Shown here piece after piece: positions 4,315 to 26,732 of a DNA stretch of 26,732 bases. Below the pieces are notes generated by a model that was given only the letters and a program-made list of their open reading frames with translations, was not told the origin of the DNA and did not search any database. Origin of the DNA: a virus; the IMG/VR virus record IMGVR_UViG_3300024432_001659, positions 1 to 26,732 of that record, one strand, 5' to 3'. How positions within the stretch are numbered: the stretch's first letter is position 1; every line of letters starts with the position of its first letter. The position numbers were made by a program, and so were the translations under genes.

Positions 4315-4328
4315 TAAGGAAAGAGAAT

Positions 4329-8859: not shown

Positions 8860-9128
8860 AAAAGACTTGCCTGAAGTGTGGATTTTGCTGCTGGAAATAT
8901 GAAGTGATTCCATTGAGTGATGATGAGGTGAAAAGTGGTAAGTTTAAAACAAGAATAAATCCAAATTTCCTAAAAGAGCTTGCTGTCTCTGTGAAAAATA
9001 TGTATATTCTTGTATTAGGAAGAAAGAAAAGAGTGTGCTGTTATTTTGTTGCTGATAAAAAACTGTGCTTAATCCATGATGGTAAGCCTAATGCTTGCAA
9101 AATATTCTTTTGTGGACAATGCACATGA
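8856..9128 (+). CDS. YkgJ-like cysteine-cluster protein
   Basis: A 90-residue protein with an N-terminal CLKCGFCCWKYE cluster (C5, C8, C11, C12) and a second group of cysteines near the end (CCYF, KLCLIH, ACKIFFCGQC). This arrangement is that of the YkgJ (UPF0153) family, thought to bind zinc or an iron-sulfur centre; the biochemical role of the family is not settled. At 90 residues it is near the lower end for the family. It begins and ends in ATGA overlaps, so it is an integral part of the glycan operon. A role maturing or assisting a neighbouring enzyme is possible but is not shown by the sequence. Confidence 0.7.
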   Translation: MKKTCLKCGFCCWKYEVIPLSDDEVKSGKFKTRINPNFLKELAVSVKNMYILVLGRKKRVCCYFVADKKLCLIHDGKPNACKIFFCGQCT

Positions 9129-9961
9129 AAGAAGTCATGCTGGATGTAGGAGAATTGGGTTGGAGCCTTTATTTGAGTGCGCACATAAGGTGGTTGAAGC
9201 ACCACGGTCGGTCTTTTTTATCCGTGATGGTTTTGCCAGGCAGAGAGGTTTTGTATCATGGATTGGCTGATAAAATTTTTCTTGTGCCCGATTGCTTTTT
9301 TACAGATTTCAATATGAATCAACAGAATAGATTTACTTTTCAAAGACTTAAAAGTCAAAAACTAAGAGGATATTTTAATTCTAAACTCCCAAAAGAATAT
9401 TTTGTTTCTAGAACTCAGCCGCTTGATGAACCTTCATGGAAAAAAGTATTTGTTGGAAGAATGTTGTTTAGGCCGTATGTTTCTGAAATGGTTTGGCAAG
9501 GAATTAAGAGGGATGAGATCCATGTATTTCCTAGGTGTAGAATGGCGAAATATTTTAGGTCTAGAAATTTGTCAAGGGAATTTTATATTGCTTTAATAAA
9601 CCGATTATGTGATGAGTTTGAGGATTGTTTGATTCAGACTATGGGAACAAAATCTGGAGCTTATGATATAGTTATTGATAAAGTAAATTATAGGAATTTG
9701 CTGGATCAGACATCTATTGAGAATCTGATAAGTGGTGCTCCACTTGTTAGGTGTGCTATAGGCAGTCAGTCTGCCCCATTGAAATTAATGCTGCTTCAAG
9801 GAGTGCCATCTTTTATGATAGGTCACGAAAAGAAGAGGCATATAGAGATTGAAAATTGGATGAAGACTAAGGCAGGATTTTACGAGATAAATAGAAATGG
9901 GTATAATGATTTTAATAGTCCTGATTGTATAGATAAAATTGTGGAGTTTTTAAAAAAGTGA
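9125..9961 (+). CDS. Putative GT-B-type glycosyltransferase, family not recognised
   Basis: A 278-residue protein starting MKEVMLDVGELGWSLYL at the ATG that overlaps the previous stop (ATGA); this start is preferred to one 30 bases upstream because the junction type repeats through the operon. It opens with a beta-alpha nucleotide-fold pattern. The C-terminal segment CAIGSQSAPLKLMLLQGVP is followed by a helix-rich end; its S-Q-S-A-P-L-K pattern resembles the donor-site loop of GT9 and related GT-B enzymes (D-S-G-x-x-x-L). I cannot assign a family. Context (glycosyltransferases on both sides) supports a transferase. Confidence 0.5.
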   Translation: MKEVMLDVGELGWSLYLSAHIRWLKHHGRSFLSVMVLPGREVLYHGLADKIFLVPDCFFTDFNMNQQNRFTFQRLKSQKLRGYFNSKLPKEYFVSRTQPLDEPSWKKVFVGRMLFRPYVSEMVWQGIKRDEIHVFPRCRMAKYFRSRNLSREFYIALINRLCDEFEDCLIQTMGTKSGAYDIVIDKVNYRNLLDQTSIENLISGAPLVRCAIGSQSAPLKLMLLQGVPSFMIGHEKKRHIEIENWMKTKAGFYEINRNGYNDFNSPDCIDKIVEFLKK

Positions 9962-10944
9962 AAAGAAATATAGCCGTTATAGGTTGTGGGTATTGGGGGA
10001 AAAATCACGTTCGTGCATTGGATGAATTAGGGTATCTTGGTGCTATTTGTGATTCAGATCTGAATAATAAAATAGTTGGTGATGGTGTTGCAAGTTCTAA
10101 GGAAAAATTGGTGCATAAATATAGGCACGTTGCGCAGTTTACGGATTATTGGGATGTGCTGGAGGATGGATCAATAGACGCTGTAGTGGTAGCGACCCCT
10201 GCTAAGACTCATTCTGAAATAACTATTAATGCGCTTGATGCTGGCAAACACGTTTTGGTAGAAAAGCCTATGGCGATAAGCACCGCTGAGGCAGATAGGA
10301 TGATGCTGGCGGCATCATTTTCACATAAGATACTTATGGTTGGGCATATATTAGAATATCACCCAGCTGTTATAGCATTAGAAAAATATATCAGAGATGG
10401 TCATCTTGGCGAATTACAGTATTTTTATTCTAGTCGTTTGAACATAGGTAGAATAAGAAGAGAGGAGAATGTGCTTTGGAGTTTTGCTCCTCACGATATT
10501 GCTTTGATCAGAACTATAGTTGGTGTATCACCTTTATTTGTAGGAGTTAAAGAGGCTTCATATTTGACTGAAGGCGTGTCTGATATTACAATTATGCATC
10601 TTGATTTTCCTGGTGGAATAAAAGCGCACATATTTGTCTCTTGGCTTCATCCTGTGAAAGAGCAAAAGTTTGTTGTTATAGGTAGTAAAGCTATGGCTGT
10701 TTTTGATGATCAGACGAATGAGAAAGTGAAAATATATGAACATAAGATTGAATGGAAAGAGCCATCAGAAGTTGCGCATATTGATAAGGCTGAATATAAA
10801 ATTCTTTGTGGTAGTTTTGGTGGAGCAGAGCCGTTAAAAGATGAGCTAAAGCATTTTGTAGAATGTTGTGAAACTGGTAAGGCTCCAAAGACTGGTGGTG
10901 CTGAAGGCAGAGAGGTCTTGAACATACTGGAGGGACGAAAGTGA
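9958..10944 (+). CDS. Gfo/Idh/MocA oxidoreductase, WbpB/WlbA-like UDP-sugar 3-dehydrogenase
   Basis: A 328-residue NAD(P)-dependent enzyme: Rossmann motif [15 protein letters not shown] (7-21), the EKP motif (102-104) typical of Gfo/Idh/MocA, and a C-terminal sheet domain containing [20 protein letters not shown] (catalytic-region His and Asp at 179-180). That last segment is characteristic of WlbA/WbpB-type enzymes, which oxidise C3 of UDP-GlcNAcA on the way to 2,3-diamino sugars. The next gene is the matching acetyltransferase, which supports this. The start is GTG, overlapping the previous stop (GTGA). The 6-dehydrogenase and the 3-aminotransferase of the pathway are not in the window. Confidence 0.8.
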
Positions 10945-11432
10945 GAAACAGGCTTTGGATAGTGGCAGGAATATTTGTTCACGAAAGTTCTTATGTAGAT
11001 AAGGATGTAGAGATAGGAAAAAACACTAAGATCTGGCATTTTTCTCATATTCAAGCAGGTGCCAGTATTGGAGAGAATTGTATCATAGGACAGAATGTCA
11101 ACATTGGCCCAGGAGTGGTGATTGGTGATAATGTGAAAATACAGAATAATGTCTCAGTCTATGAAGGTGTTACTATAGAAGATGATGTCTTTTTAGGACC
11201 AAGCTGTGTGTTTACAAATGTAAGGAAGCCAGAAGATTTTGGAATGAGAAAGTTCATCAAAACGCATGTGGGTAAAGGTGCTGTAATAGGTGCTAATGCT
11301 ACAATAATTTGTGGCATAAAGATAGGTGCTGGTGCTTTTATTGGAGCCGGTTCTGTGGTGACAAAAGATGTGCTTTCTGATGAATTGGCTATGGGCAATC
11401 CAGCCAAATCTAAATATACACTAAAGGATTGA
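10941..11432 (+). CDS. Hexapeptide-repeat N-acetyltransferase, WbpD/WlbB-like
   Basis: A 163-residue left-handed beta-helix protein with many hexapeptide repeats ([30 protein letters not shown]). The segments [20 protein letters not shown] and [12 protein letters not shown] are the hallmarks of WbpD/WlbB, which use acetyl-CoA to acetylate the 3-amino group of UDP-2-acetamido-3-amino-glucuronate. It directly follows the WbpB-like gene with a GTGA overlap, the order seen in O-antigen loci. The enzyme acts as a trimer. A loose QdtC-like alternative (acetylation of a 3-amino deoxyhexose) cannot be excluded. The first 12 residues look unlike the family; the GTG start may add a short extra tail. 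Confidence 0.8.
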
Positions 11433-11433
11433 A

Positions 11434-12354
11434 ATGAAAATATTATTAGCATTCCCTATGGCTGATGGGCAGACTGGCCCAGCTATTAAATATGCTTTTG
11501 AAAAGCTTGGGCATGAAGTGAAGGCCGTGGATGCTAAATTAAATCCAAGGAAATCTCATTTTACAGCAATACATTTTGAACCTGATCTGATTTTTTGTTC
11601 ACGAACAAAAGAGTTAGCAGATCAAGTTAGGTTAATTAAATTGGTTATTGATACAAAAATCTGTATGTGGAATGTTGATACTAGAACAAATATTACAGAA
11701 TGGAAACATCTTTTTCCTCTTATTAAATTATGTGATTACTACTTTGTTGTGGCGTCAAAGCTAATTTCAGAATGGAGGAAAATTAATCCAAACACTTTTT
11801 GGATTCCTCAGGGATTACAGAACGAGGTTTACAAAAAGCCGTTGATTATAACAGACAAGGATAGAGAGAAATATTCCTGTGATGTTGGCTGGGTTGGAGA
11901 TATTGATTCAGGTGGGCATATTTTTAGACGCTCATTTATAAAGGCTGTAAAAAGCATGGACATAGGTTTCAGAGTTTGGGGACGTAAAGGGAAGTCAAAA
12001 ATATATAATGAAGAGCATAATAAAATGGTCTCATTATCAAAAATTAATTTAGGCATGTCAGGCTGGCCGGAAAATGAAAATTGTGTTTCTGTTCGGGATT
12101 ACAAGATTTTGGGAGCAGGGGGGTTTCTTTTGGAATTTGATAGGAAGAGAATACATGATATTTTTCCAGGAAATACGTTTGATGTATATAGCGATCCTGA
12201 GGAGCTTGTTGATCAGATTGAATTTTATTTAGAAAATGATACGCAAAGGAAAAGTATAGCAGAGATGGGTTATAATTGGGTTCATAAAAATGCTACTTAT
12301 ACGCATAGAATAAAAGAAATGCTGAATATTATGAAAGGAGATCTAAAATGTTGA
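11434..12354 (+). CDS. CgeB-like glycosyltransferase (GT-B), second copy
   Basis: A 306-residue protein. The C-terminal half carries the CgeB/group-1 pattern: INLGMSGWPENENCVSVRDY, KILGAGGFLLEFDRKRI, a DPEELVDQI segment and a final helix EMGYNWVHKNATYTHRI. The middle has a typical GT-B linker (WIPQGLQNEVYKK) followed by VGWVGDIDSGG. It starts one base after the preceding stop and runs seven bases into the next gene. It is only distantly like the CgeB-type gene at 7906, so these are separate acquisitions or old duplicates rather than a recent copy. The donor is unknown. Confidence 0.75.
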   Translation: MKILLAFPMADGQTGPAIKYAFEKLGHEVKAVDAKLNPRKSHFTAIHFEPDLIFCSRTKELADQVRLIKLVIDTKICMWNVDTRTNITEWKHLFPLIKLCDYYFVVASKLISEWRKINPNTFWIPQGLQNEVYKKPLIITDKDREKYSCDVGWVGDIDSGGHIFRRSFIKAVKSMDIGFRVWGRKGKSKIYNEEHNKMVSLSKINLGMSGWPENENCVSVRDYKILGAGGFLLEFDRKRIHDIFPGNTFDVYSDPEELVDQIEFYLENDTQRKSIAEMGYNWVHKNATYTHRIKEMLNIMKGDLKC

Positions 12355-13292
12355 TAGCTCATTATTATCCTAATCCATTTGCTGCTAAATTTGAAAAGTA
12401 TCTGCCTGAGCACAGATTTTTAGCTAATAAATGTACCAAAGATGTTGATCTTATTTACTGCGGAAGTGTGTCGCGAATTCATTGGGCCTTAATTGCTAAG
12501 AATGAATTTAAAAAACCTTTGGTTTGCTGGGTTTGGGATATTCCATATAATTGGAGGTCGTGGTGCAGGACAGATAAAGAAAGAGCAGAGCATAAATGGA
12601 GAGACAAGAAGATCATGAAAAATGTTGCTGGCCTTCACCAATGTGATAAGATCATAAGTGCTAGTAAATGGACACAGAAAACTCTTAAGGAACAGTTTGA
12701 TATAGACTCTGAGCAGATGTATTTTTATATAGATACTGAAGAGTTTGATGCCGTTCCTGAGCAGGAGAATAAAGGTCATGTTATTCAGATCAGCCGGTAT
12801 GCTCTTAACAAGAGATTTGATTTGACCATACAAGCTATGAAAGGAATAGGTAGAGAATTGGTCTGTATAGGGATGGGTAAAAATTCAGATATTGATCTCG
12901 TTAAGCTTGCTAAAGATATTGGAGTTGATGTCACCTTTTATCAAAATCTTGAAAGGAAGAAAGTCATTGAGCTTATAAAGCAATCTGAACTTCTTGTGAG
13001 TCCTTCAGTATTTGAAGGATGGGGGTTGAGTCCAATTGAAGCATTATATTGTAATAAGCCAGTGCTTTTGAGTGACTTGGAAGTGTTCAAAGAAGTGTAT
13101 AAATATTATGCTCCTTGCCATAAAAGAGATGATGCTGAGGATATGAATAGGAAAATTTGTGATCTTCTTTGTAGAGAAAGTGAGCGACTTAGTGCTGTTC
13201 AAGCTTGTAGGCCATTTATAAGTGATTTTACTATTCCTAGATTCGTGACCAGATGGAACAAATTGATTAAAGGCTATATGAAAGGTCAATGA
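12348..13292 (+). CDS. GT4-family glycosyltransferase
   Basis: A 314-residue GT-B enzyme. The N-terminal half is acceptor-side (VCWVWDIPYNWRSW; KIISASKWTQKTL). The C-terminal half has QISRYALNKRFDLTIQAM, a classic GT4 linker, and SPSVFEGWGLSPIEALYCNKP (only part needed here: the E-x7-E catalytic or binding motif), followed by PVLLSDLEVFKEV. These are standard for retaining GT4 transferases such as mannosyl- or glucosyltransferases. It is a few residues shorter than the common 350-400, at the N-terminus. It is the last gene before repeat copy 2; its final codons (TATATGAAAGGTCAA) themselves resemble the start of the repeat. Confidence 0.82.
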   Translation: MLIAHYYPNPFAAKFEKYLPEHRFLANKCTKDVDLIYCGSVSRIHWALIAKNEFKKPLVCWVWDIPYNWRSWCRTDKERAEHKWRDKKIMKNVAGLHQCDKIISASKWTQKTLKEQFDIDSEQMYFYIDTEEFDAVPEQENKGHVIQISRYALNKRFDLTIQAMKGIGRELVCIGMGKNSDIDLVKLAKDIGVDVTFYQNLERKKVIELIKQSELLVSPSVFEGWGLSPIEALYCNKPVLLSDLEVFKEVYKYYAPCHKRDDAEDMNRKICDLLCRESERLSAVQACRPFISDFTIPRFVTRWNKLIKGYMKGQ

Positions 13293-13295
13293 TAC

Positions 13296-13378
13296 TAATG
13301 AAAGGTAAGACTATTAGACCTAAAACGATCACCGTTCCTAGAGCCTCTGAGAGCTTGGTTAATAAGATAAGAAGGCAA
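13296..13378 (+). repeat. Cassette-border repeat, copy 2
   Basis: Second copy of the dispersed repeat: ATGAAAGGTAAGACTATTAG, CCTAAAACGATCA and CTCTGAGAGC are shared with the other copies; the perfect stem of copy 1 is reduced to CTC/GAG. Similarity fades after about 13360. From ATG 13298 it reads as a 30-residue frame (MKGKTIRPKTI...) whose TGA overlaps the ATG of the next gene at 13387. About 20 bases upstream, the end of the GT4 gene repeats ATGAAAGGT, as if two repeat starts had been joined here. Confidence 0.9.
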
Positions 13379-13386
13379 GTGGTAAG

Positions 13387-14205
13387 ATGAAGATTATTGG
13401 AATTATGTTGACATGGAATAATCTAGTATTTTTTAAATATTCTTTGCAGCAAGCATTAAGCTTTTGTGATGAAGTTTGGGTTGTTGATGGCTGCCATTCC
13501 CATAAGTATCCTTGGCATTCCACGGATGGAACTTATGAGTATCTTAAAAATTATAGGCATGAAAAGTTGAAATTTGTTGACATAGAAAGAATAGATGGCA
13601 GATACGATAAAGTTCAGCGGTTTTTAAGAGAGACAATTCCTAAAAAATCTCAATATTGGAAACCTGGGAATTGGGTATTTCAGTTGGATGATGATCTTTT
13701 CTTTTTTGAAAAAGATTTGATTAGAATAAGAGAAGCGATGCAGAATAGTGAATATCCAGCTTTGGAATTTAATATGCGGTATTTTATTTATAATTTTAAA
13801 TTGAATTTTTTACAAAAAAGTCTTGATCTTTGTTATAAAATTGTTGATGATTTTGGGAAAAAGTTTGTGATGAAGGGAGTGGGTTATCCACGTTATAGAT
13901 CTGGTGCAAAATATCATACTAATTATTTAAAAGATATAATTGTTCATCATTATACTTATGTGAAAATACCTGAACGAATGGCTCCTCGCTGGGAAATGTC
14001 AATAGAAAAAGGAACAAAGCGTTCAAAAGGTCGTTTTGAAAAATGGATGAATATTGATCTGAATAAGATGGATTTTATTCAATTGGGAAAAGAATTAAAT
14101 AGGATCAGACCAGGTGGAGGATTAAATATATATACAGAAAGACACCCAAAAGTATTAGATAATCACCCTTGGGTGAATATTGATGATGTAAGGAAATTGA
14201 AATGA
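13387..14205 (+). CDS. GT-A glycosyltransferase, first of a tandem pair
   Basis: A 272-residue family-2-like transferase. It opens MKIIGIMLTWNNLVFFKYSL, then FCDEVWVVDGCHSHKYPW, and has the metal motif FQLDDDLFFFEKDLIRI (from about residue 97). The C-terminal part is rich in aromatic and basic residues (HHYTYVKIPERMAPRWEM). The next gene is a clear duplicate, with the same length and motifs; the two share one stretch of 164 identical bases (13600-13763) while the sequence on either side differs at roughly one base in five. It starts directly after repeat copy 2 and overlaps the next start by four bases. Confidence 0.78.
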   Translation: MKIIGIMLTWNNLVFFKYSLQQALSFCDEVWVVDGCHSHKYPWHSTDGTYEYLKNYRHEKLKFVDIERIDGRYDKVQRFLRETIPKKSQYWKPGNWVFQLDDDLFFFEKDLIRIREAMQNSEYPALEFNMRYFIYNFKLNFLQKSLDLCYKIVDDFGKKFVMKGVGYPRYRSGAKYHTNYLKDIIVHHYTYVKIPERMAPRWEMSIEKGTKRSKGRFEKWMNIDLNKMDFIQLGKELNRIRPGGGLNIYTERHPKVLDNHPWVNIDDVRKLK

Positions 14206-15008
14206 AGATTATTGGCCTTATGCTAACATGGAATAATTTAGAATTTTTTAAATGTTCTTTACATCAAGCGTTGAATTTCTGTGATGAAGTGTATGTAGTT
14301 GATGGTTGTCATTTTCATAAATACCCTTGGCATTCTACAGATGGAACTTATGAATATATTAAGAATTATAGGCATCCTAAATTGAGACTTGTTGACATAA
14401 GAAAGAAACGCAATAGATACGATAAAGTTCAGCGGTTTTTAAGAGAGACAATTCCTAAAAAATCTCAATATTGGAAACCTGGGAATTGGGTATTTCAGTT
14501 GGATGATGATCTTTTCTTTTTTGAAAAAGATTTGATTAGAATAAGAGAAGCGATGCAGAATAGTGAATATCCAGCTTTAACGTGTGATGTTAGATATTTC
14601 ATATATAATTTCAAATTGAATTTTTTGCAAAAAGGTGGAAGCGTTTGCTATAGAATTTTGGATGAATTTGGAATGAAATATGCAGGTCGTCCTTGTTATA
14701 AGAATGGTGTAGGATTTAAGGCTCTATACTTAAAAGACATAATTGCGCATCATTATACTTATATGAAAAAGCCAGCAAGAATGAAAGCTCGCTGGGAAAT
14801 GTCAATAGAGAAAGGCGCAAATTCCTCAATAGGTCGTTTTCAAAAATGGATGAATATTGATTTGAATAAGATAGATTTTGCTCAATTAAAAGAAGAATTA
14901 AATAGGATCAGGCCGGATGGAGGCTTGAATATATATACAGGAAAATACCCAAAGGTGTTAGATAATCATCCTTGGATGAACATTGATGATATAAGGAGAT
15001 TGAGATGA
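14202..15008 (+). CDS. GT-A glycosyltransferase, second of a tandem pair
   Basis: A 268-residue duplicate of the preceding gene, with the same opening (MKIIGLMLTWNNLEFF), DGCHFHKYPWHSTDGTYEY, the DDD metal motif and the same ending (LDNHPWMNIDDIRRL). The centre, including the metal site, is identical in DNA to its neighbour (14415-14578), while the segments likely to face donor or acceptor after it differ (for example CYRILDEFGMKYAGR). That pattern suggests a shared catalytic core with changed acceptor or donor choice. It is coupled to both neighbours by ATGA overlaps. Confidence 0.78.
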   Translation: MKIIGLMLTWNNLEFFKCSLHQALNFCDEVYVVDGCHFHKYPWHSTDGTYEYIKNYRHPKLRLVDIRKKRNRYDKVQRFLRETIPKKSQYWKPGNWVFQLDDDLFFFEKDLIRIREAMQNSEYPALTCDVRYFIYNFKLNFLQKGGSVCYRILDEFGMKYAGRPCYKNGVGFKALYLKDIIAHHYTYMKKPARMKARWEMSIEKGANSSIGRFQKWMNIDLNKIDFAQLKEELNRIRPDGGLNIYTGKYPKVLDNHPWMNIDDIRRLR

Positions 15009-15679
15009 CCAAAGATGAAGAGTTTGAATTCTTTTTTTCAAAATTTGGAGTGACTTTAGAAGAGGTTAGAAATAGATTAAAAAAACTTTATTTGAGTGAA
15101 GGCGTGAATACTGAAGGATTGCTGTCTTTGTATATTTCTATGGTTTCTTTAGTGATGGATGATGTAAGAAACATATTGGAGTTAGGTACAGGTTTGGGGG
15201 AACGAACAATAGTTCTTTCTAGACTTTTCCCGATGGCTAAAATATATACTCTTGATCTTCCTGAAAGTGATAAGGATTTTAATATAGCATGGAGAGGACT
15301 ACCAAAGAAAATTGACGGTCCTGGGAAGTTTAAAAGGAATATTGACAGGGAAAATATTACATACATAAATAGCAATTCTTTTTTTCTTCCTTCATTAGAA
15401 TTGCCAAAAGAATTTGAGTTTATTATTGTTGATGGTGGTCATACATATCCTGTAGTTGCATGGGATATTATGTTTTCTTATTCTCATCTTAAGAAAAATG
15501 GATTTATGCTCATGCATGATTATTCTGTTGATGCTGGAACGCTTAATGTTAGAGATGTTGTTGAATGGATGGCTGAACGAATAGATGAGAAAGTATGGTA
15601 TTTTCCAGGTTCATTTCAGTCAGAAAAAAACAAAAGAGTTAAAGTTCCTTGTGTGAGAAAGGGGGATTGTAGAAAATGA
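15005..15679 (+). CDS. Class I SAM-dependent methyltransferase (Methyltransf_24-like)
   Basis: A 224-residue protein with ILELGTGLGERTIVL (SAM-binding motif I), YTLDLPESD (acidic residue for the SAM ribose), and EFIIVDGGHTYPVVAWDI, whose D-x-x-H-x-Y pattern is typical of the TylF/CmcI-like and other metal-dependent sugar O-methyltransferases. MLMHDYSVDAGTLNVRDVV follows as expected. In this setting a sugar O-methyltransferase is the natural reading, but the acceptor is not determined. Its first 40 residues (helical, charged) are not part of the core. Both ends show ATGA overlaps. Confidence 0.75.
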   Translation: MTKDEEFEFFFSKFGVTLEEVRNRLKKLYLSEGVNTEGLLSLYISMVSLVMDDVRNILELGTGLGERTIVLSRLFPMAKIYTLDLPESDKDFNIAWRGLPKKIDGPGKFKRNIDRENITYINSNSFFLPSLELPKEFEFIIVDGGHTYPVVAWDIMFSYSHLKKNGFMLMHDYSVDAGTLNVRDVVEWMAERIDEKVWYFPGSFQSEKNKRVKVPCVRKGDCRK

Positions 15680-16317
15680 GAATACTTTTACTTTCAGCCC
15701 ATATAGATGATGCAGATACAGGATGTGGTGGAAGTGCTGCTAGATATTCCTATGAAGGTAATGAAATATATTATGCTGTATTTACTTTGGCTGAAGAATC
15801 ATTGCCGGATGGTTTGCCTAAAAATATTATGGTGAAAGAACTTAAAGAGGCAACCAGGATTTTAGGGATTCGTCCAAGTAATTTGATAATTAAAAAATAC
15901 CCAGTTAGAAGGTTTCCTCAATATAGGCAGGAAATCTTAGAAGATATGGTGCAGATGAATAAAGAAATAAATCCTAGTTTGGTTTTTATGCCTTCTAAAT
16001 TTGATACGCATCAGGATCACGTTGTCATTGCTGAAGAAGGATTCCGTGCATTCAAATCATCTTCAATTTTAGGCTATGAAATGCCTTGGAATAATGTAAG
16101 TTTTGAGTCGTCAGCTTTTATTAGTCTTAAGTCTGAATACATTGATAGAAAAATAAGAGCATTAAAGTGCTATGTGTCTCAAAGATTGAGAGCAGCAAGA
16201 CAAGGGAGAAGGCCGATCAATTCAGAAATGATCACAGCTTGGGCGCATCTTAGAGGCCATCAGATTTATGTGGATTTCGCTGAGGCATTTCATGTATTAA
16301 GGTGGATTGTAAGATGA
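15676..16317 (+). CDS. PIG-L/LmbE-type N-acetyl-sugar deacetylase
   Basis: A 213-residue zinc-dependent deacetylase. The metal site is SAHIDDADTGCGG (His9 and Asp12; family form A-H-P-D-D-E), with the second signature THQDH (111-115; His115 as third ligand). The proline of the usual motif is Ile and the Glu is Ala-Asp, small variations also seen elsewhere. PIG-L enzymes remove the acetyl group from GlcNAc in lipids, mycothiol, bacillithiol and glycan precursors. The next gene is a formyltransferase, which would act on the free amine made here. It starts in an ATGA overlap with the methyltransferase gene. Confidence 0.82.
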   Translation: MRILLLSAHIDDADTGCGGSAARYSYEGNEIYYAVFTLAEESLPDGLPKNIMVKELKEATRILGIRPSNLIIKKYPVRRFPQYRQEILEDMVQMNKEINPSLVFMPSKFDTHQDHVVIAEEGFRAFKSSSILGYEMPWNNVSFESSAFISLKSEYIDRKIRALKCYVSQRLRAARQGRRPINSEMITAWAHLRGHQIYVDFAEAFHVLRWIVR

Positions 16318-17201
16318 AAAAGAAAATAATATTTTTTGGAAACAAGGGCTGGGGAATTTACGTTCTGGATTATTTGATATCTCGTGGTTATGAAATTCCA
16401 TTAGTCATTCTTCCTCCTGGCATTAATAAAGAAAGAGCTATGGGAATAAGTGAGCTTTTGCCATCATCAACTATAATCATAAGATACCATAGCGATAATG
16501 AAGAGGCCATCGCTGGCGTGATAAAATCATTTAAGGATTATTTGATTCTTGCTTGTTCATATACATCTATTATTCCAAAGAGTATCGTTGAGCTTGGGGT
16601 CGTAAATATTCATGGCGCAATTTTGCCTCAGCATCGTGGCTCTAATATGCTGAATTGGGCAATCATCAACGGCTGGAAAGAGACAGGGATTACATTGCAC
16701 TATATGGAAGAGACATTGGATTCAGGAAGCATAATTGCCAATATTACATATCCAATATATTCATATGAAAATGTTAATGATGTTAAGATGACAATGTTTT
16801 CAAAAACGACAGAACTCCTGGATGAAAATTTACCGGCTTTAATGGGGGGAAAGGTTAAAGGTTCTGAGCAAGATCATACACTTGCTAGGTATTATCCAAA
16901 ACGAAAGCCAGAAGATGGCAGGATTGATTGGAGTAAAAATGCTGAAGATATTTATAATTTGATTAGAGCATTAGTTAGACCATATCCTGGTGCTTTTACT
17001 CATTATACATCATCAATAGTGATTGAAAAAGCTCGTATAGAAATTGATAATAGGGTTCACTCTTGTCCTGGGAGAATCACAAAACACGAGAATGGTGTTT
17101 GGGTGACTGCTGGATATAATATTGTCGTTATAGAAGAAATTAGAGAAGGAAGTTTACGAGAATTATATAATTTTTTACCTATAGGAAAATATCTTGAGTA
17201 A
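16314..17201 (+). CDS. Sugar N-formyltransferase (Fmt/ArnA-N-like)
   Basis: A 295-residue protein of the formyl-tetrahydrofolate transferase family: the catalytic triad Asn98, His100 and Asp136 lies in NIHGAILPQHRGSNMLNWAI and in LHYMEETLDSGSI. A C-terminal beta-rich subdomain (GRITKHENGVWVTAGYNIVV) follows, like the ones in methionyl-tRNA and sugar formyltransferases. Phages do not need a second tRNA enzyme, and the genes around it are for glycans, so it probably formylates an amino sugar, as in VioF, WbkC or ArnA. I chose ATG 16314, which overlaps the previous stop (ATGA), over GTG 16302. Confidence 0.8.
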   Translation: MKKKIIFFGNKGWGIYVLDYLISRGYEIPLVILPPGINKERAMGISELLPSSTIIIRYHSDNEEAIAGVIKSFKDYLILACSYTSIIPKSIVELGVVNIHGAILPQHRGSNMLNWAIINGWKETGITLHYMEETLDSGSIIANITYPIYSYENVNDVKMTMFSKTTELLDENLPALMGGKVKGSEQDHTLARYYPKRKPEDGRIDWSKNAEDIYNLIRALVRPYPGAFTHYTSSIVIEKARIEIDNRVHSCPGRITKHENGVWVTAGYNIVVIEEIREGSLRELYNFLPIGKYLE

Positions 17202-18285
17202 ACAAATTAATGTTCTTTTGACAGGCATAGGTTGTCCTGGCGGTGTTTCAATAATTCAGAGCCTAAAGGCTGACCCAAACATTGAAATTATTGGCACAGA
17301 TATGAGAGAGGATGTCCCTACAAACCATCTGGTGAAAAAATTCTATCAGGTTCCTGGCGGGATGGAAAAGGACTACATTGATGTGATATTAAACTTGGTG
17401 AGGAAAGAAGAGATAGATGTGATTTTACCTTGTGCTACATTTGAACTGGACGCTCTTTCTGCCAGCAAAACCATATTTCAGGATTATGGCTGTGAAGTTT
17501 GTGTTTCTGATTATAGAGGCCATGTGATCGCTAATGACAGACATCTGATGTCAGATGTCTTTGGGGCTTATCCATTTATACCAGAATTTGCCACTCCAAA
17601 GAATTGGGAAGAGATGTGTTATAGCTTAGGCGTATTGGGGTATCCAGAATATAAAGTTGTGATTAAACCTTTTGTGAATCACGGAAGTATAGGGCTAAGA
17701 ATTGTTGATAATAATGTTGATGTATATGAGCAATATAGGCATAAGAAACCATATTCAATAAATATTAATTTTAATCAGCTTGAGGAAATTTTTAAAGGTA
17801 GAGAATTTGATGACATTCTTATGCAGGAATATCTTCCAGGTCAAGAATGGGAAGTTGATTTATTGCTTGATCCAATAAATCACAAAGTGTTAGCTGGTGG
17901 GCTCCGTGAGCAAGGTGATGTCATTATGAGTGCTTCTGAAAAGGCCGTTTTGGTATTTCGTGATGATGTTTATCAAATAGGTAAAGAGATGGCTGAAACA
18001 TTAAAGTTAAGCTATACAATAAATTTGAGTATAAAATTAGCAGAGGATGGTATACCTAAAGTGACAGAAATGAATCCACGATTAGGTGCTGGGATGTTCT
18101 TGCCAATTTCTGGTGGAGTGAACTTTCCATTGCTATCTGTTCATATGGCTATGAATATGGAGATTGATGTTCCTAAATTTAATTATGGATTATCAATGTA
18201 TATTTATAGAGGCTATTTGGTTATGGATGAAGATGGAAAAATAGTTAATCAAACAGTTTGCCATGAGGGAGGAAAAGATGGGTAA
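17194..18285 (+). CDS. ATP-grasp ligase (carbamoyl-phosphate-synthase/PylC-like)
   Basis: A 363-residue protein with the ATP-grasp layout: an N-terminal pre-ATP domain (INVLLTGIGCPGGVSII, then DVILPCATFELDAL), a Lys in VVIKPFVNHGSIGLRIV contacting ATP, the acid pair in LMQEYLPGQEWEVDLLL, and metal ligands in VTEMNPRLGAG. These enzymes join a carboxylate to an amine or other nucleophile through an acyl-phosphate; several modify sugars with amino acids. Here it may amidate or aminoacylate a glycan unit, but the substrate is not shown. The start is TTG with AGGAAAAT upstream, overlapping the formyltransferase gene by eight bases. Confidence 0.75.
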   Translation: MSKQINVLLTGIGCPGGVSIIQSLKADPNIEIIGTDMREDVPTNHLVKKFYQVPGGMEKDYIDVILNLVRKEEIDVILPCATFELDALSASKTIFQDYGCEVCVSDYRGHVIANDRHLMSDVFGAYPFIPEFATPKNWEEMCYSLGVLGYPEYKVVIKPFVNHGSIGLRIVDNNVDVYEQYRHKKPYSININFNQLEEIFKGREFDDILMQEYLPGQEWEVDLLLDPINHKVLAGGLREQGDVIMSASEKAVLVFRDDVYQIGKEMAETLKLSYTINLSIKLAEDGIPKVTEMNPRLGAGMFLPISGGVNFPLLSVHMAMNMEIDVPKFNYGLSMYIYRGYLVMDEDGKIVNQTVCHEGGKDG

Positions 18286-18823
18286 GGAACGCCAAGCATC
18301 TTATTATGATGTTTATTATAGGAAAACAGGCGTGGCGATCTCTCCACCAATGATACCAATAATTGCATATATTGCTGGTGTGCTGAGAGAACGAAAAGTG
18401 AAAAGTGTGTTAGATATTGGCTGTGGTGCTGGCGCTATGCTTGCTGAATGTGAGAAGGCTAACATAATTAGTTATGGATTTGATTTTAGTCCTGAAGCTA
18501 TAAAACTTTGCAAAGAATCTTATAAATTAAAAAATACGTGGGTAGGTGATGCTAGATATTTTAGTAATTTTGTGAAAAAATATGATGCTTATTTGTGTTT
18601 AGAAGTTTTGGAGCATATACAAGATGATTTTGGTGTGATTAAACATTTAAAATCTGGAGTTTTATTTATTTTTTCAGTGCCATCTTTTATAAGTCAAGCC
18701 AGTTCTCATGTGAGATGTTTTAAAGCTGATAAGCAAATTAGGATGAGATATGATAAATTTGTGAATATTGAAAATATTAAATTATTTGGGAAAAGACGAG
18801 TTACGATTGGGAGGATAAAATGA
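18278..18823 (+). CDS. Class I methyltransferase, small
   Basis: A 181-residue SAM-dependent methyltransferase: SVLDIGCGAGAMLAECE (motif I), YGFDFSPEAIKLCKES (motif II, acidic ribose contact), LCLEVLEHIQDD (motif IV). I use ATG 18278 because GGGAGGA lies six bases before it; an ATG 15 bases earlier is in the same frame. The C-terminal end is short and basic (KRRVTIGRIK), about 40 residues less than the typical Methyltransf_11/23 protein, so one beta strand of the core may be absent. It overlaps the previous and following genes. The target is likely a sugar hydroxyl or carboxyl. Confidence 0.72.
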   Translation: MGKERQASYYDVYYRKTGVAISPPMIPIIAYIAGVLRERKVKSVLDIGCGAGAMLAECEKANIISYGFDFSPEAIKLCKESYKLKNTWVGDARYFSNFVKKYDAYLCLEVLEHIQDDFGVIKHLKSGVLFIFSVPSFISQASSHVRCFKADKQIRMRYDKFVNIENIKLFGKRRVTIGRIK

Positions 18824-19362
18824 AGCCATTAGACATTAGGGACATTTCAATCATAGATGCACTGCCAACATATTGTTGTAGAGGTTTGACTGAGGACAGT
18901 TGGAGGACTATTTTGAATGTTGGCTGTGGAGAGGGAAGGATTGACTGGCATCTTTCACTAATGGGATTCCAAGTTTATTCAACGGATATTATAAAGCCTA
19001 AAAGCACTGATGGTTTGAATTTCTCAGAGGCTAATATTTTTGATTTGAAAAGCTTTCCTATTCCTAGTGCTTCTGTTGTCATTTGTAGCCAGGTATTAGA
19101 GCATTTGAAAGGGCTTAAAAGAGCAGTAGGGAATTTGTTGATGTTGGCCGAAATCAGATTAATCATAACTGTGCCACGACTGAAATCTTACAGCTGTCAG
19201 TACCACGTCTGGCATTGGGATGATCTTTCTATACGGGAATTTGAAAAATGGTGTAAGCCATATTCAGTTGCCATAACAAAAATAAGAACGAAACCAGAGG
19301 ACGTAAAGATGAAGCAATGGGCTTATTTGATTGTGGTGGATAAAAGGCAATGCTATGAATAA
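18820..19362 (+). CDS. Class I methyltransferase, small, second
   Basis: A 180-residue protein with ILNVGCGEGRIDWHLSL (motif I), VYSTDIIKPK, and VICSQVLEHLKGLKRAV (motif IV), followed by LIITVPRLKSYSCQYHVW. It follows the other small methyltransferase with an ATGA overlap but the two are not close in sequence. The sequence after motif IV contains H-V-W-H-W-D-D, typical for the Methyltransf_11/23 group acting on small molecules or sugars. Its end overlaps the sulfotransferase start by eight bases. Acting in tandem with its neighbour on one glycan is plausible but is not shown. Confidence 0.72.
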   Translation: MKPLDIRDISIIDALPTYCCRGLTEDSWRTILNVGCGEGRIDWHLSLMGFQVYSTDIIKPKSTDGLNFSEANIFDLKSFPIPSASVVICSQVLEHLKGLKRAVGNLLMLAEIRLIITVPRLKSYSCQYHVWHWDDLSIREFEKWCKPYSVAITKIRTKPEDVKMKQWAYLIVVDKRQCYE

Positions 19363-20077
19363 AGTGCATTTAGTTTCGTATCCTAGAAGTGGCAACACGT
19401 GGGTGAGATTTTTAATAGCTAATATTCAGCATCCTGATCTAGACATTGGCTATAAAGAATTAGATAAACTTGTTCCAGATATACATCAACCTCATTCTTG
19501 GAAAGGAGAAAAATTTAATTGGTCACCTGTGGTATTTAAGTCTCATGAAATATTTCGTGATGATTATGAAAAGCTTATTTATTTATACAGAGATGGTCGT
19601 GATGTGGCACTTTCTTGTTATTATTTTTATCAGGGCGTATGGAGTAATCCAGAGTGGCGAATTGTTCCTAGCAGGATGAATTTTACACAATATTTGAGAA
19701 AGTTTGTTATGGATTGGAACACCTATGGAGGGTGGAAGGAACACGTTAGTTTTTGGGTTGTGCGCAAGATATTAAATACTGATGTTTTATTTATTAAATA
19801 TGAAGATCTGATTCGTGATCCTTATATGGGTTTGATAAAGATGCTTAAATCCTTAAGTATAAATTGTACATATGAGCAAGTTTGTGCTGCTGTACATAAA
19901 TCCACATATAGCAAATTAAAAGCAAGAGCGCCAGGTGATGGTCAGCATCCATATTCTTCTGGTACCAAGGGAACAGCCGGAGGGTGGAAAAAGATTTTTA
20001 CGGAAGAGCAAAAGAAAATTTTTTGGGATTATGCTGGAAGCGTGATGAAGAAATTAGGATATATTGAGGAGGAATGA
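19355..20077 (+). CDS. PAPS-dependent sulfotransferase
   Basis: A 240-residue sulfotransferase: SYPRSGNTWVRFL (8-20) is the 5'-phosphosulfate-binding loop (family Y-P-K-S-G-T-T-W), VVFKSHE (59-65) holds the catalytic-type His64, YRDGRDVALSCYY (78-90) is the 3'-phosphate site, FIKYEDLIRD the conserved Tyr-Glu-Asp segment, and GTAGGWKKIFTEEQK the late motif (family K-G-x-x-G-D-W-K). It should move sulfate from PAPS to a sugar or other hydroxyl. The second ATG at 19355 gives the family start; an in-frame ATG 24 bases earlier would add eight residues of no family likeness. It ends in a strong GAGGAGG region. Confidence 0.82.
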   Translation: MNKVHLVSYPRSGNTWVRFLIANIQHPDLDIGYKELDKLVPDIHQPHSWKGEKFNWSPVVFKSHEIFRDDYEKLIYLYRDGRDVALSCYYFYQGVWSNPEWRIVPSRMNFTQYLRKFVMDWNTYGGWKEHVSFWVVRKILNTDVLFIKYEDLIRDPYMGLIKMLKSLSINCTYEQVCAAVHKSTYSKLKARAPGDGQHPYSSGTKGTAGGWKKIFTEEQKKIFWDYAGSVMKKLGYIEEE

Positions 20078-20223
20078 TGTCCAAAATAAAAATCAGAATT
20101 GAGAAAGGCGAGAAGATAAAGGCTGTGTTTCAAGAAGCTCCTCTTGTGTCTTTTCCAGGTAGGCAATATCGTAATTGGGTTTGGGATGAAAAAAGAAGAG
20201 GATGGGTAAGGAGAGAAAAATGA
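20074..20223 (+). CDS. Small basic protein of unknown function
   Basis: A 49-residue frame (48 if the second ATG is used), MMSKIKIRIEKGEKIK..., ending RRGWVRREK. The start overlaps the sulfotransferase stop (ATGATG) and AGGAGG sits upstream, so translation is likely. The product is very basic, with one Trp-rich segment (RNWVWDEKRRGW) and no membrane segment. It resembles nothing I recognise; binding nucleic acid or an acidic glycan are possibilities only. Its stop overlaps the ATG of the epimerase stub. Confidence 0.5.
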   Translation: MMSKIKIRIEKGEKIKAVFQEAPLVSFPGRQYRNWVWDEKRRGWVRREK

Positions 20224-20267
20224 AAATATTAGTGACAAGTGGAGCTGGATTTAAACTTTTAGAATAG
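20220..20267 (+). pseudogene. Remnant of an NAD-dependent sugar epimerase/dehydratase (5' end only)
   Basis: ATG 20220 overlaps the preceding stop and starts MKILVTSGAGFKLLE, then TAG. The opening matches the Rossmann start of extended SDR sugar epimerases (MKILVTGGAGFIG). After 10-11 family-like residues the frame leaves the pattern and stops. It is best read as the scar of a gene lost by deletion, leaving only the first codons joined to unrelated sequence, just upstream of an intact gene of the same superfamily. Confidence 0.55.
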
Positions 20268-20317
20268 CACTTGTGATGTTGGTGCTTAAAACTCTAATAT
20301 ATTAGTGGAGGCTTCTT
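20268..20317 (+). promoter_or_regulatory. Spacer before the GDP-fucose-synthase-like gene, with a 12-base palindrome
   Basis: A short non-coding stretch after the epimerase stub. It contains the perfect palindrome CTAATATATTAG (20294-20305), possible -35/-10 pair TTGTGA (20271-20276) and TAATAT (20295-20300) at 18 bases, and GGAGG before the next ATG. The gene-to-gene overlaps that characterise the cargo are broken here, which would fit a separate start of transcription, but the promoter match is weak. Confidence 0.3.
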
Positions 20318-21268
20318 ATGAATCTAAAAGGTAGAAGAATCCTTATAACAGGAGGATCAGGCTTTTTAGGAAGAGTATTGGTCAAGAAATTGGAAAAGAT
20401 TGGGGCACAAGTATTTGTGTGCCGATCTAAGCATTATGATCTTGTGGATTATAAAGCTTGTGGAAGATTGTTTAGATATATGGTGCCTAATATTGTGATC
20501 CATTTAGCAGCATTTTATGGTGGAATTGAGATCAATCAAAAGTATCCAGCTAGAATTTATTTTAAGAATTTAATAATGGGAGCAAATGTAATTGAGATGT
20601 GTAGAAAATGGGATGTAGAAAAGTTTGTTGGTATAGGCACAGCTTGTTCTTATCCTGGCTATTTGGAAGGAGATCTGAAAGAAGAGAATTTATGGGATGG
20701 TCCTTGCCATGAAAGCGTTAAAAATTATGGGCCTACAAAAAAGATGCTTCAAATTCAGTGTGAAGCCTATAAAAAACAATATGGTTTAAATGGGATTCAT
20801 CTGATTTTGACCAATCTTTATGGAGAATGGGATTCATATAATCCAGAGAGGTCTCATGTAGTTGCTGCGCTTATTAGAAAATTTGTAGAAGCCAAGATGA
20901 ATGGTAATGATGTGGTAAGAGTTTGGGGGAATGGAAAGCCTATTAGAGAATTCATTTATGTTGGGGATGTGGCGGATGCTATAGTGCGTGCTACGGATGT
21001 TTATAATGATTTAAGTCCTTTGAACATAGGCACTGGAATTGGAACGAGCATAAGAGAACTTGCTGGCTTGATAATGATGCTGACCAATTATAAAGGCAAT
21101 CTGTATTGGGATACAGAAATGCCTTCTGGTCAATCTAAAAAGGTTCTAGATATCACAAAGATGAAAAGGGTTTTAGAATGGGAGCCTAAAACTTCATTAC
21201 AGGATGGTCTTAAGGCGACTATCTCTTGGTTTGAGCAAAACTATACAGAGGCTATAAAGAGGTGGTGA
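20318..21268 (+). CDS. GDP-L-fucose-synthase-like epimerase/reductase (SDR)
   Basis: A 316-residue extended short-chain dehydrogenase: nucleotide site ITGGSGFLGRVL (10-21), VIHLAAFYGGIEINQ (60-74), the serine/threonine region GTACSYPG, and the catalytic NYGPTKK with Tyr137 and Lys141. SHVVAALIRKFVEAK, WGNGKPIREFIYVGDVADAI and LNIGTGIGTSIREL are signature segments of GDP-L-fucose synthase, which turns GDP-4-keto-6-deoxymannose into GDP-L-fucose. The preceding GDP-mannose 4,6-dehydratase is not in the window, so the precursor must come from the host or from elsewhere. A clear GGAGG precedes the ATG. It is the last gene before repeat copy 3. A relative making another 6-deoxyhexose is possible. 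Confidence 0.75.
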   Translation: MNLKGRRILITGGSGFLGRVLVKKLEKIGAQVFVCRSKHYDLVDYKACGRLFRYMVPNIVIHLAAFYGGIEINQKYPARIYFKNLIMGANVIEMCRKWDVEKFVGIGTACSYPGYLEGDLKEENLWDGPCHESVKNYGPTKKMLQIQCEAYKKQYGLNGIHLILTNLYGEWDSYNPERSHVVAALIRKFVEAKMNGNDVVRVWGNGKPIREFIYVGDVADAIVRATDVYNDLSPLNIGTGIGTSIRELAGLIMMLTNYKGNLYWDTEMPSGQSKKVLDITKMKRVLEWEPKTSLQDGLKATISWFEQNYTEAIKRW

Positions 21269-23816: not shown

Positions 23817-24953
23817 ATGAGCGAAATAGCATATGCAAATCAAGAGCAAATGTTCGCTATAGCAGAAACTACATCTGGAACGTTGAAAAAGCCCACGGCT
23901 TCTGAAAGAATGTATTCAGTCGGGCCTGTGGATTTTGGGCAAGATCAAGAGTTCCTAGATGATGAACAGGTCAGAGCAACAGCATCAAGACTTAAACAAT
24001 TGACAGGTCGTATGATGCCTGGAGAGTATGGCTTTGATTCTTATGTGAAGCCTAGCGGAACTGTAGGTGCTGAGCCGGAACATGATCTTTTGTTCAGGTC
24101 TTTGATGGGGGCTGGTGATATTGATGGAGATGGGAACTATGCCTATACGTTGGAAAATGAGTTGCCTTCATTTTCTTTTTGGGTGAAGAAAGGCCATACT
24201 GTTTTTGCCTTTAGAGGAGCAACAGTTGAAGGAGCGGATTTTGGTATTTCTGGTGATGCCCTTTCTCTTATTAGTTGGAGCGGAAAGTATATGAGGGAAT
24301 TGAGATGTGGAACGTCTTCTACTATTTCAATTAACGGTTCTGTTCTGACAATGCCGCCAGCAGCTTGTGAAAGCTATAGTGAAGGAATGTGGATTTATGT
24401 AGGGGCTACCAAGACTGGGCCTGGCTATCGGATTTTAAAAGTCAATCCGGCAGGAAATAAGATGACTTTAAATGGAAACCCTCCTGGCCCTGCTCGTCAG
24501 GAAGTTTCGCCATGGTGGCCAACGGCTGGAGAAGAGAAAGGATATCCGCAGCATGGTAAGCTTGGAAAGGTCACTGTCAACGGTCGTGAAACTATTGTTT
24601 TGACTGCCAATGTTAGTATGGTGAATAACATTAAATACTACATTGATGAGAAGAACAACGTGATGACTGCTGAACGATATGGTCGTCCTAAAATCCGAGA
24701 GATTGAAGGCAGTTTGGAAATGTATTTCTTGAAAAGAGGCCCAAGTTATTATTACAGATCTGAATATCAAATTCCTAATGCGTTGGTTATTCCTGTCGGT
24801 AAAGTAGATGGGAAAATTATGGAACTTCAGATTCCATACGCAGAATATAGAACGCCAAAGATCAGTGGTGATGAAGAATTTCAAGAAAGCGTTCCTTTTA
24901 TTGCCGTAGCTAGTACCGGCTTGAATGATGAATTCAAAATTGTTTTTAAATAA
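23817..24953 (+). CDS. Major tail tube protein
   Basis: A 378-residue protein. Near the N-terminus, IAETTSGTLKKPTASERM and QEFLDDEQVRATASRLKQL resemble the start of siphovirus tube proteins, which often open with a segment about target sites and a D-E-x-x-R. The second half has GKLGKVTVNGRETIVLTANVSM and KIREIEGSLEMYFL, typical strands of the tube-domain fold. The C-terminus EFQESVPFIAVAST fits a tube or decorating domain. There is an extra segment of about 80 residues (from about 165), with Gly/Pro-rich loops, that the shortest tube proteins lack. Strong GGAGG. Its place, between terminator and assembly chaperones, agrees. Confidence 0.75.
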   Translation: MSEIAYANQEQMFAIAETTSGTLKKPTASERMYSVGPVDFGQDQEFLDDEQVRATASRLKQLTGRMMPGEYGFDSYVKPSGTVGAEPEHDLLFRSLMGAGDIDGDGNYAYTLENELPSFSFWVKKGHTVFAFRGATVEGADFGISGDALSLISWSGKYMRELRCGTSSTISINGSVLTMPPAACESYSEGMWIYVGATKTGPGYRILKVNPAGNKMTLNGNPPGPARQEVSPWWPTAGEEKGYPQHGKLGKVTVNGRETIVLTANVSMVNNIKYYIDEKNNVMTAERYGRPKIREIEGSLEMYFLKRGPSYYYRSEYQIPNALVIPVGKVDGKIMELQIPYAEYRTPKISGDEEFQESVPFIAVASTGLNDEFKIVFK

Positions 24954-24965
24954 TTTTGAAAAATA

Positions 24966-25010
24966 ATTAGGAGAGACAGACCGTGAGATCTGTTTCCCTC
25001 AAAAATTTTT
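24966..25010 (+). terminator. Weak hairpin after the tail tube gene
   Basis: ACAGA (24976-24980) pairs with TCTGT (24989-24993) with an 8-base loop; the stem is prolonged by GAG/TTC pairs with one mismatch, and AAAAATTTTT follows at 25001-25010. It could limit read-through from the abundant tube gene into the chaperone genes, but it is imperfect and the T-run is separated by several bases. Confidence 0.35.
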
Positions 25011-25025
25011 AAGAGGAGGCTTTAA

Positions 25026-25559
25026 ATGAAGCTTGAGAAAAAAGATATTGGTTCTTGGATCAGTAAGGCTGGAAAAACAGAACAAATTAAGGAATTCCGG
25101 TATCCTTACATTAAGGAATTTTTTGTTGACGTTGCGCACGCCAGCCGGTTTATTTTAAACCAAATTCGTCAATTGGCGGTAGAAGAGTACACTGATCGTA
25201 GGACTCGTACTAAAGAAGAAAAGCTGGATGAAGACAAAGTGAATTTGGGATATGCTGAGCGTATCATTAAAGGTTGGAGGGGCTTAACCGTCAAAGGGGC
25301 GGATGAACTTATTCCTGGTACGTTAGATGAAGCTGAGTTCCAATTTGAAGAGGAAAAGAAAAAGAATCCTGATTTCAAAATTCCATCTCGTGAAGACATT
25401 CTGAAAACTGAAGTTGAATTTTCAATTGAAACAGCTTTTGAGATCATCACTAATTCTGGTGATTTTATGACATGGATATTGGATGTGAGCGGGAACACTG
25501 AGCATTATTCAAAGGTTGGTGAAAGGAAGAAAGAGGAATATGAAAATTTAAAGCCATAG
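25026..25559 (+). CDS. Tail assembly chaperone, short form (lambda G-type)
   Basis: A 177-residue mostly helical, charged protein (MKLEKKDIGSWISKAGK; FEIITNSGDFMTWILDV). It sits between the tube and tape measure genes, exactly where tail chaperones are found in siphoviruses, and its end overlaps a second frame (open from 25544) as in the lambda G/GT system. The proposed role is to coat the tape measure while the tube assembles. AGAGGAGG lies upstream of the ATG. The family is not obvious from motifs, so the call rests on position, size, composition and the frameshift site at its end. Confidence 0.72.
   Translation: MKLEKKDIGSWISKAGKTEQIKEFRYPYIKEFFVDVAHASRFILNQIRQLAVEEYTDRRTRTKEEKLDEDKVNLGYAERIIKGWRGLTVKGADELIPGTLDEAEFQFEEEKKKNPDFKIPSREDILKTEVEFSIETAFEIITNSGDFMTWILDVSGNTEHYSKVGERKKEEYENLKP
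25544..25550 (+). other. Probable programmed -1 frameshift site A AAT TTA
   Basis: In the frame of the short chaperone the codons here are GAA AAT TTA AAG CCA TAG. A AAT TTA fits the canonical X XXY YYZ slippery heptamer (the Rous sarcoma virus site has the same seven bases). A slip back by one base makes AAA GCC ATA GCG GAG GTG follow, joining the frame that runs to 25993, and this happens three codons before the zero-frame stop. The downstream frame first opens at 25544, so the site lies at its very beginning. Confidence 0.75.
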
Positions 25560-25993
25560 CGGAGGTGGCAGGTGGTCTCAAAAAATCTAAAAAGAATTGT
25601 GATGACTGCAAGAGATTAAGAGATCCTGAATCCTTCGCTAAGGGATCGGCAGTAAAGATTTTTGAGGCATTTGATTGTGAGGAATGTGAGGTGAAAAAAG
25701 GTCAGCCGATACCTGAAAATGAAAATATACTTGAGCTGTATAATTCCATTCCACATAATTATGATGGATATACTGGATTGAGGATATTGGATGTAAATGC
25801 TATAAAGTTTTTGTTTGAGGTATTTGATGTTGGGAAGAATATACAGGATGATTATTATAGAAAATTAGTGTATCTCCATGGAGAGATTGTGAATGCTAAT
25901 GAAAAGGTAAGAGTACAAGAGGAAAAGAAAAGAGAAGCAGATAGAAAATGGAAAGAAGAAAAAAGCAGGATGAAAAGCAAGAGGCTTCATTAA
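25550..25993 (+). CDS. Tail assembly chaperone extension (T part of a GT fusion)
   Basis: The frame is -1 relative to the short chaperone and has no good start of its own: the first candidate, GTG 25565, has its GGAGG overlapping the codon itself. By frameshift, the first 175 residues of the short form join 147 residues from this frame, giving a protein of about 322 residues. The extension has a Cys pair pattern (NCDDCKRLRDPESF and FDCEECEVKK), then a central alpha region and a charged coiled-coil end (EEKKREADRKWKEEKSRMK). In lambda the T part binds the tube subunit and G binds the tape measure; the same division is likely here. Confidence 0.72.
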   Translation, partial: KAIAEVAGGLKKSKKNCDDCKRLRDPESFAKGSAVKIFEAFDCEECEVKKGQPIPENENILELYNSIPHNYDGYTGLRILDVNAIKFLFEVFDVGKNIQDDYYRKLVYLHGEIVNANEKVRVQEEKKREADRKWKEEKSRMKSKRLH

Positions 25994-26011: not shown

Positions 26012-26732
26012 ATGGCTGCTAGAAAAGATATAGTCCTTCGGCTTTCATTCATGGATGATGGTTCAGCTAAAGTCAAAAAAATCACCACGACTGTGAGAAA
26101 GCAGTTGAAGTCCACAGGTGCTGCTGCTAAAAAAATGGGTAGGGATTTCAAGTCTATGACTGATCATGTGAAGGCTTCTTTTGCTTCACAAGGTAAATTT
26201 AAAAAGATGCTGAAATCTACATGGGCTCAGATGGCAATGGGTATGGGCGTAATGACTGGTGTCACTATGGCTATGCGTTCTATAAAGAGAGCCGTTACTG
26301 ATGTTGTTGCTGTAGGTAGGGAATTTGAAGCTGAATGGGCCAACGTCACAACGATGATTACGGATGTTAATGTTAATACAGAAGAGATGAAAAATCAGCT
26401 GATAGGCTTGTCGCCAATTCTTGGAAGCACAACTGAATTGGCCAAAGGTATGTATCAGGTATTATCAGCATCTATTGAGCCAGCTAAGGCGATTATGTTT
26501 CTTGGCGAGGCGGCAAAGTCTGCCCAAGCTGGTGTTACTAGTGTTTTTATTGCTGTGGATGCATTGACTACTGTTATCAATGCTTATGGTATGGAGACTG
26601 AAAAGGTCACGGCAGTCTCTGATGTGATGTTTCAGACAGTTATGAGAGGTAAGTTGACATATGAGGGATTAGCATCAACATTAGGCACCGTTGTTCCTAT
26701 AGCAGCAAAAGTTGGCATTAGTTTAGAAGAGG
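26012..26732 (+). CDS. Tail tape measure protein, N-terminal part (TP901 type)
   Basis: The frame from ATG 26012 stays open to the end of the window (240 residues visible). The segment from about residue 107 (EFEAEWANVTTMITDVN, then PILGSTTELAKGMYQVLSA, AKSAQAGVTSV and TYEGLASTLGTVVPIAAKVG) matches the conserved core of TP901-family tape measure proteins. The N-terminus is a basic helical region (KVKKITTTVRKQLKS) and a hydrophobic stretch (MAMGMGVMTGVTMAM). It sets tail length and follows the chaperones as expected. No strong Shine-Dalgarno is seen. The C-terminus is outside the window. Confidence 0.88.
   Translation, partial: MAARKDIVLRLSFMDDGSAKVKKITTTVRKQLKSTGAAAKKMGRDFKSMTDHVKASFASQGKFKKMLKSTWAQMAMGMGVMTGVTMAMRSIKRAVTDVVAVGREFEAEWANVTTMITDVNVNTEEMKNQLIGLSPILGSTTELAKGMYQVLSASIEPAKAIMFLGEAAKSAQAGVTSVFIAVDALTTVINAYGMETEKVTAVSDVMFQTVMRGKLTYEGLASTLGTVVPIAAKVGISLEE

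Follow-up and report, generated by a model that had tools for sequence, protein, structure and literature searches.

The gene pair and its surroundings

The DNA analyzed here (the window) derives from an uncultured virus and covers a 26.7-kb fragment, the 26,732 nt of the record IMGVR_UViG_3300024432_001659. Two overlapping reading frames, G and T, sit between a tail protein gene and the tape-measure gene (Table 1). G matched the family phrog_313, annotated as "tail assembly chaperone," and its profile aligned over 111 columns with those of seven T5-like G proteins. The first-pass annotation had called the two frames a chaperone pair, and for G this identity is supported by the phrog_313 match and by the tape-measure gene lying directly 3' of the pair. 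T showed no good match to protein families, and its similarity to T5-like T proteins was weak (E 6e-4, probability 28) but collinear. A search of solved structures with the G sequence returned no match. AlphaFold models of G (pLDDT 38) and T (pLDDT 56), built from two-sequence alignments, were too poor for a fold search and were set aside.

Table 1. Features of the G/T locus and its neighbors in the window
Feature	Position	Strand	Basis
Tail (tube-type) protein 5' of G	23817..24953	+	phrog_290 minor tail protein, E 1.4e-11
G, tail assembly chaperone, 177 aa	25026..25559	+	ORF; phrog_313, E 1.5e-8; hhalign to T5-like G, E 1.2e-12
Slippery heptamer A AAT TTA	25544..25550	+	In register, opens exactly with -1 frame; kept in L001, as A_AAT_TTT in nine far loci
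Second, overlapping slippery heptamer T TTA AAG	25547..25553	+	In register; T TTA AAA in L001; absent from far relatives
T domain, -1 frame, 146 aa of 322-aa fusion, including stop TAA	25553..25993	+	Open frame; 83% identity in L003; homologous T in nine far loci (combined profile)
Zero-frame stop TAG of G, at stem base	25557..25559	+	Reading frame and fold
5' arm of predicted stimulatory stem, UAGCGGAGG; inner part CAGG 25569-25572	25557..25565	+	MFE fold, z -3.3; same stem in L001, z -2.9; codon-preserving shuffles
GTG, sole possible early T start; GGAG abuts without spacing	25565..25567	+	Sequence; also in L001
3' arm of predicted stem, CCUUCGCUA; inner part CCUG 25625-25628	25632..25640	+	MFE folds of window and L001
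Tail tape measure protein, N-terminal part, runs off record	26012..26731	+	PF10145, 3e-17; phrog_36688, 2.5e-23

Two in-register heptamers in the overlap

G starts at ATG 25026 and ends with the zero-frame codons GAA AAT TTA AAG CCA TAG. In the -1 frame, the stop TGA at 25541-25543 is followed by an open stretch that begins at 25544, where A AAT TTA also starts, and lasts until TAA 25991-25993. The two frames thus overlap at 25544-25559, with T in the -1 frame relative to G. These codons and frames confirmed the earlier statement that A AAT TTA lies in the zero-frame register (X_XXY_YYZ) where the -1 frame first opens. The claimed fusion length of 322 residues was also correct, as a -1 shift would give a G-T fusion of 176 + 146 aa with the junction ENLKAIAEVAGG. 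The earlier account of the heptamer was right about A AAT TTA and incomplete in missing the overlapping T TTA AAG. The full slippery run, AAATTTAAAG, holds both in-register heptamers, and slippage at either leads to an identical protein. Peptides predicted from the fusion sequence include AIAEVAGGLK and YENLKAIAEVAGGLK. The peptide LKAIAEVAGG, proposed earlier for proteomics, does span the junction but is not a tryptic peptide, because trypsin cuts after the junction lysine.

Of the 8371 in-frame codon pairs within the window ORFs, 76 (~0.9%) formed a heptamer X_XXY_YYZ. With three usable slots, the chance of some heptamer is ~3%, and that of AAATTTA itself is ~0.1%. Its retention in relatives, as judged from the sequences described below, takes the match well beyond chance. 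A search of the phage frameshifting literature for AAATTTA or AAAUUUA found nothing relevant. Upstream of the site, AGAGGA at 25532-25537 resembles a Shine-Dalgarno sequence. Equal anti-Shine-Dalgarno pairing occurred at 16% of coding positions, so no upstream stimulator is claimed for the window.

Conservation of the heptamer in close and distant relatives

Single-protein scans of viral_contigs found one close relative only, IMGVR_UViG_3300031539_003944 (L001/L003/L056), with identities of 78% for G and 83% for T, and neither G nor T recovered a relative when scanned against genome_contigs. The window's own lineage consists of these two sequences. L001 keeps both heptamers, the G stop, the GTG at 25565, GGAGG, and the stem. 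Its T, like that of the window, carries CDDC together with C(E/D)xC (window 25598-25690), which are absent from T5-like and far-relative T proteins and may, from their sequence, bind metal as a pair of CxxC motifs.

Far relatives were collected by a degenerate-pattern scan for the motif IIKGWRG followed by an HMM search, which yielded nine loci, six of them distinct. Profiles combining the window pair with the T5-like proteins matched these loci with E values of ~1e-39 to 1e-43 for G and ~1e-18 to 1e-22 for T. A profile built only from the window and L001 matched G (E 1e-9 to 1e-13) and not T. T was in the -1 frame in all nine far loci, and the overlap of each contained a single heptamer, A_AAT_TTT in GAA AAT TTT ACN AAG. 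No start codon was present in the first 30-odd codons of T in any of the nine. The conservation that the first-pass annotation had named as a check was thus found, as A_AAT_TTA in L001 and as A_AAT_TTT in the six distinct far relatives, with T in the -1 frame throughout; none of these seven had kept the two frames and lost the heptamer.

Immediately 5' of the heptamer, the far relatives L029 and L050 carry AGGTGATC or GGTGATC, 4 nt before A_AAT_TTT. Its pairing with the 3' end of 16S rRNA is unusually strong, only 0.2-0.3% of coding positions being as strong. This sequence may be a stimulator or merely the codons for VGDLENF. Two further contigs with related tape measures, L008 and L009, were rejected as relatives of the pair, their chaperones being unrelated by profile A1. 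Both have T in the -1 frame, and the GC-rich contig L008 carries GGGAAAC (2524-2530), a lambda-like -1 site, in register just before the G stop.

A predicted stem downstream of the heptamer

In the window, UAGCGGAGG is predicted to pair with CCUUCGCUA in a stem whose 5' arm begins 6 nt past A AAT TTA and 3 nt past T TTA AAG, and two further C-G pairs could extend it. The same stem folds in L001, from 8 nt after the heptamer. Against codon-preserving shuffles, the stems of the window and L001 had z scores of about -2 to -3.8; depending on the folded length, 1-3% of the shuffles reached the observed energy in the window and 0-2% did so in L001. Among the 888 sliding windows of the record, the window stem (z about -2.9 to -3.3) ranked only between the 1st and 5th percentiles, which is supportive, not decisive.

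The far relatives showed predicted hairpins (z -3.4 to -6.3) of 9-11 pairs that started 4-8 nt past the heptamer and contained the zero-frame stop in the 5' arm. In these few sequences, the 3' arms and loop lengths differ, and each 3' arm is complementary to its own 5' arm. Folding of the downstream RNA, also suggested in the first-pass annotation, therefore gave a predicted stem in all eight distinct sequences, at ~4-8 nt after A_AAT_TTN. The usual spacing between heptamer and structure is 5-9 nt (PMC5009743), a range that includes the window (6), L001 (8), and most far relatives; L024 and L030 have 4.

Probable frameshifting and its alternatives

The register of the heptamer, its conservation together with the -1 frame of T, the absence of T starts in far relatives, and the stem make -1 frameshifting very probable here. 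From these sequence features, we infer with high confidence that slippage at AAATTTAAAG makes G plus the 322-aa G-T fusion, as in a lambda-type chaperone pair. A minority of ribosomes would shift by -1 at this run and continue into T. The core of the site would be A_AAT_TTA (A_AAT_TTT in distant relatives), extended here by the overlapping T_TTA_AAG. The ribosome is probably kept on the site by the predicted stem-loop, which begins shortly 3' of it and has the zero-frame stop at its base. The predicted products are G alone and a minor G-T fusion; by analogy with lambda, G would coat the tape measure and T would recruit the tail tube protein.

Which of the two heptamers is used is less certain. 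A shift at T TTA AAG rather than at A AAT TTA is quite possible, although we lean against it, and would leave the protein product unchanged while placing any likeness to the Rous sarcoma virus site beside the point. T TTA AAG belongs to the lambda-like class X_XXA_AAG, which is shift-prone for E. coli ribosomes, bacterial translation experiments have used U_UUA_AAG for shifting (PMC5009743), IS6110 has been drawn with UUUUAAAG (PMC5896891), and T TTA AAR is kept in L001. However, far relatives have only A_AAT_TTT, so that the shared core is A_AAT_TTN, and the window stem would then lie only 3 nt 3' of the site, or 5 nt if counted from GCGGAG.

T could instead be made as a separate protein that would begin M-AGGLK, by termination at the TAG of G and reinitiation at the GTG, which lies 5 nt after the stop and is kept in L001 together with GGAGG. 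This seems very unlikely, because GGAG runs directly into the GTG and leaves no spacing for ribosome binding, GGAGG falls inside the predicted stem, and start codons are lacking from the first 30-odd T codons of the nine far loci, whose G and T are homologous. These points fit the earlier remark that the second frame lacks a good start and make an own start of T unlikely, most clearly in the far relatives; the window and L001 still have the GTG. That a sequencing or assembly error split one continuous G-T gene beside a coincidental heptamer can practically be dismissed: a heptamer is expected by chance in one of the three slots in ~3% of cases, but the same frame relation recurs in independent contigs (L001 and nine others from other samples), which contradict such an error, and G and G-T in two frames are the standard layout before tape-measure genes.

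Comparison with other frameshift systems

The heptamer of Rous sarcoma virus gag-pol is A AAU UUA, and its likeness to the window is in the slippery letters only, the genes being unrelated and the ribosomes eukaryotic. Phage lambda uses the slippery site G_GGA_AAG for gpG/gpG-T and so differs from the window in its heptamer. To our knowledge, no frameshift stimulator is known for lambda, whereas the window and every relative have a predicted stem. The sequence kinship seen for the window G is with T5-like G. The two systems are alike in having overlapping frames before a tape-measure gene, a -1 shift near the end of G, and a fusion expected in the minority; lambda needs G and G-T in a 30:1 ratio (PMC5009743). 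The -1 cassettes of E. coli dnaX and IS911 share with the window a heptamer, a short spacer, and a stem-loop (PMC5009743), the last being only predicted for the window. They differ in that the heptamer is A_AAU_UUA in the window and A_AAA_AAG in the cassettes, and in that the upstream Shine-Dalgarno-like element of the window is not above background.

Apparent opposite shift direction in the T5-like branch

The T5-like set consisted of 12 records (L011 to L020, L022, and L023; Demerecviridae with a phrog_313 pair). T was in the +1 frame in all 12, and the second chaperone usually had no nearby start codon. Each G plus T coding sequence held exactly one in-frame TTT CGN (12 in 2961 codon pairs), which in every case lay in the overlap and among the final 13 codons of G. 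No downstream structure was seen in these records. UUU_CGN is also the motif of the influenza PA-X site. In plant amalgaviruses, UUU_CGN is a described +1 site (PMC5052127), and according to a T5-like genome paper, a frameshift signal is absent (PMC6256483). Contrary to that report, the sequences of all 12 records suggest a likely +1 frameshift at TTT CGN. For T5, such a shift would give a junction peptide ending LDTFVAQK; the annotation of its T uses an internal start.

The T5-like TTT aligned on the TTT of A AAT TTT in the far relatives. The window lineage has a longer G end, and its alignment to the T5-like shift codon is less certain; in the window, T is -1 relative to G and the overlap lacks TTT CGN. 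The two pairs are alike in homologous G proteins, weakly similar and collinear T proteins, genome place, and shift codons at the same alignment position. In contrast to the A_AAU_UUN site, stem, and -1 frame of the window, the T5-likes have a single UUU_CGN, no structure, and the +1 frame. The window branch at -1 and the T5-like branch at +1 at aligned codons thus appear to be opposite recoding directions at a homologous place. We somewhat favor the reading that one homologous chaperone family shifts by -1 (A_AAU_UUN with a stem-loop) in the window and environmental phages and by +1 (UUU_CGN without structure) in T5-likes at the same codons, the direction having been exchanged in place and the amalgavirus-type +1 site of T5 having been overlooked.

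Among long-tailed phages, frameshifting in tail chaperones is very common, and its -1 form is already known as a kind. Tailed phages differ in its direction, which can be -1, -2, or +1 (PMC5009743). What is new here is the putative stem-assisted A_AAU_UUN site together with an apparent switch of direction within one recognizable sequence family. A -1 site with a stem and a +1 site at what appears to be the same place in homologous genes would offer a way to study how a recoding signal changes direction, and T5, a laboratory phage reported without a frameshift signal, becomes directly testable.

Other features of the window

Between the tail protein gene and G, a strong hairpin followed by a T run lies at 24965-25012 (z -5.9 for the 100 bases from 24951). 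L001 has a resembling hairpin at ~1612-1650. The window hairpin is probably a partial terminator below an abundant tail protein. Between the capsid and tail genes, ~18 kb of the window (3223-21268) holds sugar-metabolism-like genes. The apparent types, judged by eye, are glycosyltransferases, a formyltransferase, a deacetylase, methyltransferases, a sulfotransferase, and a sugar-nucleotide epimerase, which look like unusual cargo for a phage structural region.
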